This document shows, piece by piece, positions 7,130 through 13,078 of a DNA stretch of 64,000 nucleotides. The stretch comes from an uncultured Clostridia bacterium (GTDB lineage: Bacteria > Bacillota > Clostridia > Saccharofermentanales > Saccharofermentanaceae), in the NCBI GenBank assembly GCA_947304405.1, contig CAMZBB010000001.1, forward strand, positions 36,023 to 100,022, written 5' to 3'. Position numbers and translations under genes: made by a program. Below the pieces are notes generated by a model. The model was not told where the DNA came from, searched no databases, and saw nothing but the letters and a program-made list of their open reading frames with translations. The stretch's first letter is position 1. Each line of letters begins with the position of its first letter.

Positions 7130-9544
7130 ATGACGCTTAAAGAACGACTCGGTAAAGAATGGCTCTTCTGCGACGGCGGAACAGGAACGATACTTCAGGA
7201 AATGGGCCTCAAAGGCGGCGAACTGCCTGAGACATGGAATCTTTCAAGACCTGATGACATCAAGTCCGTAGCAAGATCGTATTTTGAAGCAGGCTGCAAC
7301 ATCGTCAACACCAACACTTTCGGCGCAAACTCTTTCAAATACAACAACTTGGCCGAGATCGTTACGGCTGCGGTAAAGATATGTCAGGAAGCAAGACATG
7401 AAGCTGGCAGAGATGATGACGCATATGTCGCGATCGACATCGGTCCGACGGGAAAACTTCTTGCGCCTATGGGAGACCTTCCGTTCAATGAAGCGGTAAA
7501 GGTCTTCTCTGAAACGATAAAGGCAGGCGTTGAAGCAGGCGGCGACCTTGTCCTCATCGAGACGATGAGCGACTCATATGAAGCAAAAGCCGCGGTAATA
7601 GCGGCACACGAGACATGCGATCTGCCCGTGATCGTTACCACCGTTTATGATGAAAGCGGAAAGCTCTTAACGGGCGGAAGCATAGAAGGAACCGTCGCAA
7701 TGCTCGAAGGCCTCAGGGTCGATGCTATCGGCGTCAACTGCGGATTCGGGCCCGACAAGATGATCCCCATCGTTGAGCGTCTTGCCAGGTGCTGTTCCCT
7801 TCCCATCGTAGTAAATCCCAATGCAGGACTCCCCAGGACCGAAGGCAACAAGACAGTATTTGATGTAGGTCCGGAGGAGTTCAGCAGGGTCATGAAAGAG
7901 ATTGCTGCGATGGGCGTCCAGGTAATGGGCGGCTGCTGCGGCACTACGCCTGCGCACATGAAGGCACTCATAGAAGCAGTATCTTCCCTGCCTTTCAAGG
8001 AGCCTGTCAGGAAGCATGGAACTTATGTCACAAGCTCTTCCGAATGCGTTGAGATCGGTCCCAAGCCCGTCATAATCGGCGAAAGGATCAATCCTACCGG
8101 CAAGAAGAGATTCAAGCAGGCACTGCGCGAGAACGACACTGATTACATACTTACCGAGGGACTTAAGCAGGAAGAGGCCGGCGCGCACATCCTTGACGTC
8201 AACGTAGGTCTTCCCGAGATCGACGAGCCTTCCATGATGGAGAACATCGTTTATAAGCTCCAGTCCGTAACAACTCTCCCTCTCCAGCTCGATTCAACCG
8301 ACATAGAAGCATTAGATCGCGGCATGCGCATCTACAACGGAAAGCCCATGATCAACTCCGTAAACGGCAAGCGCGAAACGATAGAGGCTGTTATGCCTCT
8401 CGTGGCTAAATACGGCGGCGTCCTCGTAGGCCTTCCTTTGGATGAGGAAGGAATCCCCGAGACTTCGGACGGAAGGATACGCGTCGCGAAAAAGATCTAC
8501 GAAGCCGCTGACGAATACGGCATCCCACGTGACGACATCGTGATCGACGGTCTCGCCATGACGATCTCGTCGGACTCTTCTTCTGCTGTCACGACACTTG
8601 ATACCGTAAGAAGGATCAGAGATGAATTCGGCGGGCATTCGATCCTTGGCGTTTCCAACATATCGTTCGGACTTCCGGCAAGAGAACTCATCAACTCGCA
8701 TTTCCTCACCATGGCAATGCAAAACGGACTTTCCTGCGCGATCATAAACCCAAACAATGACCACATGATGGCATCCTACCGCGCTTTCTGCGCTCTCATG
8801 GATAAGGACCCGCAGTGTCTCGGCTTCATCAATGCCTACGCGGAATACAAGTCTGACGGAACTTTCGGCGGAGCATCTTCGGGCATTGCAGGCACCGCTT
8901 CTTCATCTTCTGCCGGAACAGCCAAGCTCTCTCTTGCGGAAGCGATCGGACGCGGTGTCACGGGCCGTGCAGCGGAAGCAATGCAGGAAGGCATATCCGC
9001 AGGTAATGAACCGCTCGAACTGATAAATGCGGAACTCATTCCCGCGCTGGACAAAGTCGGAAAAGGCTTTGAAAAAGGCACGATCTTCCTCCCCCAGCTG
9101 CTGATGAGCGCGGATGCGGCAAAAGCGGCATTTGAAGTCGTCAAGAAATCGATGGAAGGCAAGCCCCGTCAGGTTAAGGGCAAGGTCATACTCGCCACCG
9201 TCAAGGGTGACATACACGACATCGGCAAGAACATCGTTAAGGTAATGCTCGAAAACTACGGCTACGATGTTATAGATCTCGGCAAGGACGTCGCTCCGGA
9301 GATCATCGTGGAAGCGGCGATAAAAGATGACGTCAAGGTCGTGGGATTGTCAGCGCTCATGACCACAACAGTTGTCTCAATGGAAGAGACGATAAAGCTC
9401 CTCCGTGAGAAAAAGCCTGATACAAAGGTAGTTGTCGGCGGAGCCGTCATGACGCAGGAATATGCCGACCAGATAGGTGCTGACGCTTATTCAAAGGATG
9501 CAATGCAGACAGTAAGATATTGTGACGAAGTATTTGGAGTATGA
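7130..9544 (+). CDS. metH: Cobalamin-dependent methionine synthase (homocysteine, pterin and B12-binding domains; no activation domain)
   Basis: DGGTGTILQEMG, GGCCGTTPAHM, IIGERINPTGKKRFK, GDIHDIGKNIVKVMLENYGYDVIDLGKDV; 804 aa ending after the B12 domain. Confidence 0.93.
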   Translation: MTLKERLGKEWLFCDGGTGTILQEMGLKGGELPETWNLSRPDDIKSVARSYFEAGCNIVNTNTFGANSFKYNNLAEIVTAAVKICQEARHEAGRDDDAYVAIDIGPTGKLLAPMGDLPFNEAVKVFSETIKAGVEAGGDLVLIETMSDSYEAKAAVIAAHETCDLPVIVTTVYDESGKLLTGGSIEGTVAMLEGLRVDAIGVNCGFGPDKMIPIVERLARCCSLPIVVNPNAGLPRTEGNKTVFDVGPEEFSRVMKEIAAMGVQVMGGCCGTTPAHMKALIEAVSSLPFKEPVRKHGTYVTSSSECVEIGPKPVIIGERINPTGKKRFKQALRENDTDYILTEGLKQEEAGAHILDVNVGLPEIDEPSMMENIVYKLQSVTTLPLQLDSTDIEALDRGMRIYNGKPMINSVNGKRETIEAVMPLVAKYGGVLVGLPLDEEGIPETSDGRIRVAKKIYEAADEYGIPRDDIVIDGLAMTISSDSSSAVTTLDTVRRIRDEFGGHSILGVSNISFGLPARELINSHFLTMAMQNGLSCAIINPNNDHMMASYRAFCALMDKDPQCLGFINAYAEYKSDGTFGGASSGIAGTASSSSAGTAKLSLAEAIGRGVTGRAAEAMQEGISAGNEPLELINAELIPALDKVGKGFEKGTIFLPQLLMSADAAKAAFEVVKKSMEGKPRQVKGKVILATVKGDIHDIGKNIVKVMLENYGYDVIDLGKDVAPEIIVEAAIKDDVKVVGLSALMTTTVVSMEETIKLLREKKPDTKVVVGGAVMTQEYADQIGADAYSKDAMQTVRYCDEVFGV

Positions 9545-10461
9545 GCATGGACGATGAAAAAACACTAAAGTTCAACAAAGCAGCAGGCATTATCAGCATA
9601 ATATCGGCATGCATTTTCGCCGTGACGTTTGTTTTGGGAACTTTCCTGGATTACCGGATCGCGCCCGCTCTTTTCTCGGATAAGAATTTCACCTGGCTGA
9701 TCGTAACCACCTTGGGAATCTATATCTTCTGCGCCTTTTACGCATTCTTTTTCGGAGCGCTCTTAAGTCAGGCCGTAAACGTTCCCAAATCGAAAAACAA
9801 ACGCACCGGATACATCATCGCAGTTACGGTCATCGGATTGATTGCCATGCTCATCTGCGGCGGTTCGGTACTGGATATCAATAACCTGGGAAGCATCATA
9901 CCCGGAGTGCAAAGGGACGTTCCCCAGATGATAATAATGCTCGTTGTCGGACTGCTGCCCATCTCTCTTTTGGGATACACAGCCTGCAAAAAGAGAAGTG
10001 ACGCCCTTCTTGCCAAACGCCTGATACTGGTGCTTTCGGCAATGACCGTCTCATTCCTTCTTTATGAAATGATAAAGATCGGTCTTCCCCGCCCGAGATA
10101 CCGACTTCTTGCAAAAGGATATGAAGGAATCGATTTTCACAGATGGTACGACCCTATCAAGAACAAAGCCGAACTGATTGCCAAGTACGGCATCAATAAA
10201 GATGATTTCAAATCATTTCCGAGCGGCCACACATCGAACAGCATCATGAACCTTGCGCTCTTCCCCGCACTCGGACTGGTGTATCCAAGCTTAAAGAGAA
10301 GATCCATGCTGCTCCTCGTTCTCGGAGTATTCGTGGGGATCACCGTGCTTATCTCGAGAATGGTGCTGGGCGCGCACTTCCTGAGCGACGTGTCATGCGG
10401 AGGCTTCACGGCTTCGGTCGTGTCTGCCGTGTATTACCGCGTCTATAACAAGATCCGCTGA
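9541..10461 (+). CDS. PAP2-type phosphatase membrane protein
   Basis: Multi-TM; KIGLPRPRYR, FPSGHTSNSIM, SRMVLGAHFLSDV match the three PAP2 motifs. ATGA overlap with the metH stop. Confidence 0.85.
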   Translation: MSMDDEKTLKFNKAAGIISIISACIFAVTFVLGTFLDYRIAPALFSDKNFTWLIVTTLGIYIFCAFYAFFFGALLSQAVNVPKSKNKRTGYIIAVTVIGLIAMLICGGSVLDINNLGSIIPGVQRDVPQMIIMLVVGLLPISLLGYTACKKRSDALLAKRLILVLSAMTVSFLLYEMIKIGLPRPRYRLLAKGYEGIDFHRWYDPIKNKAELIAKYGINKDDFKSFPSGHTSNSIMNLALFPALGLVYPSLKRRSMLLLVLGVFVGITVLISRMVLGAHFLSDVSCGGFTASVVSAVYYRVYNKIR

Positions 10462-12927
10462 TCAGCTGATCGATGTGACTTTGTAGTCCTTATCCTCAAC
10501 CGCTTTCTTGAGAACATCGTCACCGACATCGCCGGAGAGCGTTACGACTGCCGTTCCGTCCTTGTGAGATACTTCAGCTGACTCAACGCCTTCAACTGAT
10601 TCAAGAGCCTTCTTTACTGAAGCTTCGCAGTGTCCGCACATCATGCCTTCGATCTTCATCGTCTTTGTCATTTCTTTATCCTCCCTGCCGTTGCCGGTTT
10701 TGTTCTTTATCGCCCTGTCATGCCCCGTATCGTAAGGTTTGACAAGATTTAATCTCAATGCGTTCATACATACCGTAAAGCTCGAAATGCTCATCGCAGC
10801 AGCTCCCAGAACAGGAGACATTACAATGCCCATTGCCGAATAAGCGCCGGCAGCCACCGGTATCAGCAGGATATTGTAAAAGAAAGCCCAGAAAAGATTT
10901 TCGTGTATGTTCCTTATCGTTCTCCTCGATATCCTTACCGCTGCGCAGACATCCTTGAGAGTGGCCTTCATGAGCACTATATCAGAAGCATCGACCGCTA
11001 TGTCCGTTCCTGAACCTATGGACATGCCGATGTCCGCTCTTGTAAGCGCCGGAGCGTCGTTTATTCCGTCGCCTACCATAATGACTTTTCCATGCTTCTT
11101 AAGTTTTCTGATAACAGATTCCTTGCCGTCAGGAAGGACTCCCGCGATAACCTCATCAACTCCGGCGACCCTGCCAATGGCTTCAGCGGTACGGATATTG
11201 TCACCTGTGAGCATTATTACCTTTAATCCGAGTGCCTTAAGTTCGCTGACAGCTTCGGGAGAATTCTCCCTTACTGAATCAGCTGCAACCATCATGCCGA
11301 GATATCCGTCTTCAGAAGCAAAGAACATCGGCGTCTTTCCGTCTTCCTCAGCTTTCCGGACGGCTTCTTCCTGTTCGCCGGTCAGTTTTTCGCCTATAAG
11401 GTCCAAATTGCCGCCCATATAGTTCTTCCCGTTTATCTTTCCCGAAACGCCACGTCCCGCAGTTACCTTAAAATCTTCCGCAGGCAAGACATTACCAAAG
11501 CCTTTTTTTCTGCAATAATCAGCACACGCCTTGCCAAGAGGATGTTCGCTCCCCTGCTCGAGCGCGTAAACGACCTTAAGGAGATCATCTTCTGAGATGC
11601 CGTCTGCGGTCACTACGTCGGTTATCTCGGGAACGCCCTTGGTAAGAGTTCCTGTCTTGTCTATAACCGCAATATTCGCTTTTCCCGTTTCTTCAAGCGA
11701 TGAGGCCGCCTTGAAGAGAATGCCGTTTTTTGCTGAGAGTCCGCTGCCGACCATTATCGCGACGGGAGTTGCCAGACCAAGTGCACATGGACAACTGACG
11801 ACAAGTACGGCGATAGCTCTCGTAAGAGCCGTCTCGACAGGAGTTCGGGTAAGCATCCAAATAATGAAGACAACTGCTGCGATAATGATAACTGCAGTAA
11901 CGAAAACTCCCGCAACCTTGTCAGCGATCCTTGCGATGGGCGCTTTTGAAGAAGCGGCATCACTCACAAGCCTGATGATCTGAGATAGAGTAGTATCCTC
12001 ACCAACCTTTTCCGCCCTGCACTTGATGAATCCGGACCTGTTGATAGTCGCAGCGGAGACTAAGTCTCCTTCACCCTTGTCAACCGGAACTGATTCCCCG
12101 GTCAGCGCGGATTCGTCTATTGCGGCGCCGCCTTCGATTATCACGCCGTCAACCGGAATGGCTCCGCCGGGTCTCACCAGGAAGATATCGCCGACTCTGA
12201 CCTCATCTATTTGAACAGTGGTCTCTTTTCCGTCCTTAAGGAGAACGGCAGTCTTGGGAGCCAGTTTTATGAGTCCTTTAAGGGCATCGGTGGTCCGTCC
12301 TTTCGATATCGATTCGAGAAGTTTTCCGACTGTAATAAGAGTAACGATCATTGCAGCGGATTCGAAATACAGCCCGCCGTGAGCGCCTCCTTTAACAGCC
12401 ATTTGAACAAGAACCGCTACGCTGTAGACAAAAGAGACACCGGCTCCCATTGCCACCAGCGTGTCCATATTAGGTGCAAGATGCAAGGCAGCTTTGATCC
12501 CGCTGGTGAAGAATCTTCCGTTGATGACCAGACAGATCGCTGCAAGGATCATCTCTATGGTTCCCATGGCAACATGGTTGCCTGTAATTCCCGCCGGCGC
12601 GGGCCAGCCAAACATCATGACACCCATCGAAAAGTACATGAGCATCAAAAGGAAGGCCAAAGACAGGATGAGCCTTCTTCTCAAACGAGGAGTCTCATTA
12701 TCTTTCAGCAGGCTGCCATCATCGACCGCAGCACCGTAACCTGCTTTCTCAACGGCTTTGATCACGGAATCGGAAGGAGCCGATCCGGTAACCTTCATCG
12801 AATTCGTAAGGAGCGACACGTCACAAGATGATACGCCTTCAAGCGAAGACACGGCTTTCTCGACGTGTGATTGGCACGCCGCGCAGCTCATCCCGGTAAC
12901 TCTGTATTTTGTAGTTTTCTCTGCCAT
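10462..12927 (-). CDS. copA: Copper-translocating P1B-type ATPase with N-terminal and C-terminal HMA domains
   Basis: GMSCAACQSHVEKA, SCPCALGLATP, DKTGTLTKG, GDGINDAPAL; C-terminus carries a complete second HMA domain MTKTMKIEGMMCGHCEASVKKAL. Start set at MAEKTTKYRV. Confidence 0.92.
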   Translation of the reverse strand: MAEKTTKYRVTGMSCAACQSHVEKAVSSLEGVSSCDVSLLTNSMKVTGSAPSDSVIKAVEKAGYGAAVDDGSLLKDNETPRLRRRLILSLAFLLMLMYFSMGVMMFGWPAPAGITGNHVAMGTIEMILAAICLVINGRFFTSGIKAALHLAPNMDTLVAMGAGVSFVYSVAVLVQMAVKGGAHGGLYFESAAMIVTLITVGKLLESISKGRTTDALKGLIKLAPKTAVLLKDGKETTVQIDEVRVGDIFLVRPGGAIPVDGVIIEGGAAIDESALTGESVPVDKGEGDLVSAATINRSGFIKCRAEKVGEDTTLSQIIRLVSDAASSKAPIARIADKVAGVFVTAVIIIAAVVFIIWMLTRTPVETALTRAIAVLVVSCPCALGLATPVAIMVGSGLSAKNGILFKAASSLEETGKANIAVIDKTGTLTKGVPEITDVVTADGISEDDLLKVVYALEQGSEHPLGKACADYCRKKGFGNVLPAEDFKVTAGRGVSGKINGKNYMGGNLDLIGEKLTGEQEEAVRKAEEDGKTPMFFASEDGYLGMMVAADSVRENSPEAVSELKALGLKVIMLTGDNIRTAEAIGRVAGVDEVIAGVLPDGKESVIRKLKKHGKVIMVGDGINDAPALTRADIGMSIGSGTDIAVDASDIVLMKATLKDVCAAVRISRRTIRNIHENLFWAFFYNILLIPVAAGAYSAMGIVMSPVLGAAAMSISSFTVCMNALRLNLVKPYDTGHDRAIKNKTGNGREDKEMTKTMKIEGMMCGHCEASVKKALESVEGVESAEVSHKDGTAVVTLSGDVGDDVLKKAVEDKDYKVTSIS

Positions 12928-13078
12928 AATCCGTTTCGAGTTAGAATAGCCTAACCGGTGCCGTTTCGTCAAATAGTATTTTGTAGTTATTATTGCTTAT
13001 TTTCATTTTTGTTAACACAAATTTCTTTTATCTTTCGTAAGATTGAATTATAGATTCAATATTCAGGAGGATGCGGGT

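Follow-up and report, generated by a model that had tools for sequence, protein, structure and literature searches.

The copA locus and its product

The gene copA occupies positions 10462..12927 on the minus strand of the window (that is, the whole stretch of 64,000 nucleotides that was analysed) and, according to its open reading frame and to its Pfam and NCBIfam matches, encodes a Cu(I)-type P1B ATPase of 821 amino acids with an HMA domain at each end. In the product, Pfam matches place the following elements in order: (i) an N-terminal HMA domain (residues 8-64; 12736..12906, minus strand; PF00403); (ii) the P-type ATPase core; and (iii) a C-terminal HMA domain. Assignment to CopA is borne out by matches to PF00403, PF00122 and PF00702, by a score of 571 bits against the TIGR01511 copper-ATPase subfamily model, whose cut-off is 397, and by the presence of the signature motifs SCPCALGLATP (with the CPC in TM6), DKTGT and NALR.

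The last TM helix is joined to the C-terminal HMA domain by a flexible linker (about residues 729-752; 10672..10743, minus strand), inside which lies the Shine-Dalgarno (SD) sequence discussed below. In the AlphaFold2 model of CopA (mean pLDDT 72), residues 729-752 are coil and form the block of lowest confidence (pLDDT 38). The C-terminal HMA domain opens with a strand whose first residue is exactly 753, an internal Met; hence, initiation at this residue would free the complete domain and nothing else. The domain has the metal site MMCGHC and a predicted fold over residues 753-820, and it matches solved CopZ structures, among them 6ff2, 2qif and 1k0v. The His in this metal site (MxCxHC) fits the CopZ2-like subgroup described in PMC7558416.

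Upstream of copA, a promoter scan gave a candidate promoter, TTGACG-18-TATTCT (12941..12972, minus strand), with the palindrome TTAGGCTATTCTAA over its -10; as a class, such promoter-like sites are not above chance (5 vs 2.7 +/- 1.8 in shuffles). The palindrome itself (12941-12954) occurs only once in the whole home genome, i.e., the genome to which the window belongs, and its conserved counterparts precede copA in the two closest relatives (L005, 1404-1417; L006, 1408-1421). By eye, it resembles a metalloregulator (DtxR-like) operator, and no match to the CsoR family was found in the home genome. Some 16 nt separate the copA ATG (12927), which has essentially no SD, from the putative -10; the leader of copA may thus be very short. 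At the other end of the gene, a PAP2-like ORF (9541-10461; named by eye) lies tail to tail with copA, their stop codons being adjacent (10459-10464), and no terminator is detectable between the two in the window.

The internal start site

Read on the minus strand, the end of the linker is ...CGGC AGGGAGG ATAAAGAA ATG ACA AAG..., the A of the ATG being position 10671. This ATG (10669..10671) is preceded, at a distance of 8 nt, by the internal SD AGGGAGG (10680..10686), which is described below in terms of its energy, its conservation, synonymous-codon tests and the predicted fold of the RNA. Its strength is -10.9 kcal/mol vs about 0 (dG 0.1) at the copA ATG. From ATG 10671, 69 codons lead to the TGA at 10462-10464, and this internal in-frame ORF (10462..10671, minus strand) encodes a candidate free CopZ-like chaperone of 69 aa, 7.3 kDa and pI 5.0 (MTKTMKIEGMMCGHC...), with HMA and CopZ matches and with a start that is conserved in its orthologs. 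The initial annotation had described a C-terminal HMA domain starting at an in-frame ATG behind an SD with 8-nt spacing, and a 69-aa product amounting to a complete CopZ-like domain: the minus-strand sequence confirms the former, while the latter is upheld by the match to Pfam HMA (PF00403; E 1.1e-15) and by the strand that begins at Met 753. The 69-aa product also matches the NCBIfam CopZ models (E 1e-18 to 1e-14), yet under their curated cut-offs (NF047957, 67 bits vs 85; NF033795, 54 vs 91); the assignment to the HMA family stands and the CopZ equivalog label is withheld.

Both the SD and the ATG of the window are unpaired in the predicted RNA fold, in which no special structure is found at the internal site: it is simply open. 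Shuffling leads one to expect 0.74 patterns of the type AGGGAGG-N4-10-ATG per window, which is chance level for a single sequence; in consequence, the case rests on comparative data. As to the possibility of an assembly error hiding a stop codon, it was ruled out: the comparison of orthologs proposed in the initial annotation revealed no stop between the ATPase and HMA domains in the window, nor in a single one of the 179 relatives with the fusion (the TAA flagged in genome G007 is the normal terminal stop).

Conservation of the site among fused relatives

These relatives were gathered in two stages: (i) a first pass, in which a scan of the collection gave 80 loci with the fused architecture, all from Clostridia and relatives; and (ii) searches at class and phylum level, whose additional genomes brought the set to 179 distinct loci coding for a fused CopA, in Clostridia and other Bacillota. 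The SD was in none of the queries. An ATG is present at the homologous codon in the window and in all of the 80 first-pass relatives, a count that includes a mild bias toward Met at this position because the search profile begins with Met, and the linker before it is otherwise unalignable. In this same set (80 plus the window), a dG of -8 kcal/mol or lower was obtained at 86% of the homologous ATGs vs 2.7% of 2047 other in-frame ATGs of the same genes.

In the larger set, a site was counted when an ATG, GTG or TTG was accompanied by an SD of -5.5 kcal/mol or stronger. Such a start codon with its SD, located 8-9 codons before the C-terminal GMxCxxC, occurs in 169 of the 179 loci vs 2.6% when anchors are chosen at random in these genes. 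A start codon as such is found at the site in 170 of the 179 relatives (167 ATG, 2 GTG and 1 TTG), and there is a strong SD both at the GTG of L118 and L119 and at the TTG of L164. On average, the internal SDs are stronger than those of copA's own starts (-9.5 vs -8.0), and the mean unpaired probability is 0.68 at the internal site vs 0.42 at other internal ATGs. In Ruminococcus albus 7, for instance, the copA locus (L241; AATAAGGAGGATAATACAATG) has the internal site AAGGAGG-ATAATACA-ATG.

Two of the CopA proteins have C-terminal HMA domains in tandem (L160, of 923 aa, and L232, in a frame of 978 aa). In both, the start codon and the SD are found on the last HMA domain only, which makes them a natural internal control.

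A convincing site is missing from about four to six of the 179 loci: the start or the SD is not convincing in L131, L137, L155 and L165, and the SD is weakened in L077. Judging from their position on single tips of the tree, these exceptions look like scattered losses. In the genome of L137 (G121), a free CopZ-like gene (L202) is located immediately upstream of copA; among the exception loci, this is the only obvious case of a replacement copZ offsetting the lost site.

It has been suggested, though this is contested, that ribosomes are slowed down by SD-like stretches, and the internal SD could be regarded as a programmed elongation pause that aids membrane insertion or C-terminal folding with no initiation at all. 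The position of the SD-like sequence after the last transmembrane helix fits this explanation. But a pause needs neither a start codon at a fixed 8-nt spacing, nor the interchange of ATG, GTG and TTG, nor low structure; furthermore, the distance to the transmembrane helix varies with the length of the linker (an estimated 15-157 aa), while that to the start codon is constant. This explanation is thus considered very unlikely.

Selection on nucleotides at the SD

The linkers provide a second line of evidence. Among 167 distinct linkers, Lys at codon -5 is encoded by AAG in 71 of 72 cases, vs 51% AAG in the same genes, and Glu at codon -4 by GAG in 114 of 120, vs 46% GAG in the same genes; the codons adjoining these two favour AAA and GAA. 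In the nominal p values, related sequences count as independent; the AAG/GAG bias survives thinning to 106, 55 and 30 sequences (less than 75, 65 and 60% identity, respectively). Per-sequence synonymous shuffles are individually weak (median p 0.25), since Lys and Glu already favour SD-like DNA; only the pooled tests and those on specific codons are strong. Nor is the SD tied to one reading of the codons: GGAG is found in codon phases 2, 0 and 1 in 117, 22 and 1 loci, respectively, and the residues encoded by the SD vary (KE, ME, TE, QE, KGE, TGG, GG or ER).

These data bear directly on the idea that selection acts on the protein, with the Met and the preceding Lys/Glu being kept for the fold or for processing by a protease that releases the domain. 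It is true that the Met opens the first strand of the domain in the AlphaFold2 model and that Lys and Glu are frequent at -5 and -4. Nevertheless, protein-level selection does not account for the nearly invariant synonymous choice at these two codons next to Lys and Glu codons of the opposite preference, nor for an SD that is also encoded as KGE, GG, ER or ME, partly in other phases, nor for the fact that Val and Leu at the site are specified by GTG and TTG. Such an explanation is highly improbable: as judged from codon usage, selection at the internal site is on nucleotides and not on residues.

Age and origin of the fusion

In unfused relatives, a separate copZ with its own RBS is found about 20-180 nt downstream of the copA stop, in most cases at 20-110 nt. 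A recent loss of this stop could have fused both genes, and the fusion could then have kept the RBS of copZ passively, as an unused leftover. The distribution of the fusion argues against this scenario: it is spread over dozens of families, and on a quick, unrooted tree of 129 ATPase cores, from which the polarity (fusion or fission first) cannot be read, the fused/unfused label changes only twice, compared with a mean of 14.4 changes after shuffling, which indicates that the fusion is old and stable. Besides, linkers have diverged beyond alignment, yet the start codon and the SD persist in 169 of the 179 loci, and an unused remnant would have decayed instead of showing synonymous-codon selection at the SD. 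The initial annotation had offered a fresh copA-copZ fusion with a retained RBS as one of its two readings. That reading is rejected because the site survives while the surrounding linker has been randomised, and there is scarcely any probability left for an idle relic.

Search for a separate copZ

Three HMA matches were obtained in the home genome (2.16 Mb, 91% complete): CopA accounts for two of them, and the third lies in an operon with an ArsR regulator and a Zn/Cd-type ATPase. A separate free copZ was not found in this 91% complete assembly, from which it could be missing. The only HMA ORF besides copA (C63) was considered as a free copZ and rejected, as it is the detached HMA domain of the ArsR/Zn-Cd ATPase operon. 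In eight other genomes with a fused CopA (G040, G052, G221, G225, G264, G265, G280 and G285), no HMA domain was found beyond the two of CopA, which makes the C-terminal domain the sole CopZ candidate there. Regarding annotation, copA of R. albus 7 (RUMAL_RS18915) and that of Roseburia sp. 831b each appear in RefSeq as one ATPase CDS located behind a metal-sensing repressor; in neither of them is a copZ annotated beside copA.

Internal initiation as the probable source of free CopZ

Taken together, the internal site has a conserved start codon, an SD at the proper spacing, selection at the nucleotide level and an accessible position in the RNA. On these comparative grounds, the probability that copA yields free CopZ through conserved internal initiation is put at roughly 0.9. 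The proposal of the initial annotation that a single gene, by internal initiation, may supply free CopZ along with the fusion thereby gains strong support from the conservation of SD and start in 169 of 179 relatives and, as far as sequences can tell, further backing from the synonymous-codon selection, the GTG/TTG swaps, the accessibility and the lack of a separate copZ.

The two products would arise as follows: (i) translation from the copA start would give the 821-aa pump, with the CopZ-like domain tethered at its C terminus by the flexible linker; and (ii) 30S subunits would bind the internal SD on the copA mRNA between elongating ribosomes, and initiation at ATG 10671 would release the same domain as a free, soluble, cytosolic chaperone of 69 aa. 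This product would presumably be stable and bind Cu(I), in which case it would collect Cu(I) and hand it to the pump. The strong internal SD may lead to an excess of chaperone over pump, an outcome made plausible in the window by a copA ATG that is almost devoid of an SD (dG 0.1). A point against internal initiation is that elongating ribosomes could mask the internal site. More speculatively, the tethered copy may serve as a donor to the pump at high local concentration.

A separate short transcript could also act as copZ mRNA, with the internal start being read mainly from a promoter within the 3' end of copA, where a weak promoter-like site does lie (10758-10729, minus strand). Sites of this kind are no more frequent in the window than in shuffles (5 vs 2.7 +/- 1.8), and this origin of the message appears unlikely; in any case, it is compatible with internal initiation and not exclusive of it.

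Comparison with known systems

In Escherichia coli, -1 frameshifting in copA gives the pump and a free HMA copper chaperone of about 70 aa (PMC7558416; PMC5009743). As in E. coli copA (CopA(Z)), a single copper-ATPase gene is here predicted to provide pump and free HMA chaperone with no separate copZ. But while the E. coli chaperone is the N-terminal HMA domain, produced by frameshifting and termination at a slippery site with a pseudoknot, in Clostridia it is the C-terminal HMA domain that would be released, by means of an SD and a start codon, and a conserved slippery site is absent from the junction. A programmed frameshift of the E. coli type at this junction was rejected, with a slippery heptamer near the internal site in 8 of 170 loci (4.7%) vs a background of 2.4%. 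The separate copA-copZ operons of Bacillota share with the window the order copA then copZ, the homologous HMA domain and its own RBS; unlike in those operons, the copZ of the window is in frame inside copA, with no stop in between.

Internal in-frame starts that give a C-terminal product are known from other proteins: (i) Cas11, for which an internal start of cas8/cas10 gives the C-terminal domain as a separate product, as shown experimentally (PMC11899642); (ii) two-polypeptide phage endolysins, whose C-terminal isoforms were predicted bioinformatically and confirmed by experiment (PMC9430671); and (iii) the Rpn toxin/RpnS antitoxin pair, in which the C-terminal isoform is experimentally known (PMC10327210). 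The principle is the same as that proposed for copA, but Cas11 is a CRISPR effector subunit, unrelated in protein and function, and endolysins and Rpn/RpnS serve in phage lysis or defence and not in metal homeostasis. No report of internal initiation for copA/copZ was found in the open-licence literature.

On the whole, copA is probably a conserved two-product gene in much of Clostridia: it would code for a pump with a tethered chaperone and, via the internal SD, for the only free CopZ of the cell. The outcome would be the one reached in E. coli, attained convergently by another translational mechanism, and the strong internal SD, together with the weaker copA start, would set the excess of chaperone. 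At present, annotations show clostridial copA as a gene for a single protein, and many such genomes (from gut and rumen) appear to have no copZ. Should ribosomes indeed use the internal start, the copA genes of many genomes would conceal a chaperone family, and one-gene/two-protein copper handling would have evolved independently in two distant bacterial groups, with different translational tricks. Moreover, copA offers a clean, testable system for a pump:chaperone ratio set from one mRNA, and the signatures of synonymous codons and start-codon substitution make in-frame internal starts findable.

Other HMA proteins in these genomes

The ArsR operon of the home genome (L004, 760-3235; G000:C63) comprises an ArsR regulator, a detached HMA protein of about 72 aa (DLDCANC) and a Zn/Cd-type ATPase without its N-terminal HMA domain; it parallels, in split form, the fused copper system of this genome. 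The same arrangement of ArsR, detached HMA and Zn/Cd-type ATPase is seen in L195, L197, L208 and L209.

Several of these Clostridia also have a recurrent small HMA protein, distinct from CopZ, with an MMCGMCEAHI/MMCKMCEKH-like motif (L196, 906-1217; L198, 1294-1551; L200, 1272-1550; L204, 1475-1774; L206, 549-947), which often ends in a C-terminal tail of the KKGLF/KRGL type. Finally, the small proteins encoded by L205 (1442-1867) and L207 (1601-1972) combine an HMA domain with a Cys cluster of the CCGGG type and what appears to be an N-terminal TM helix.
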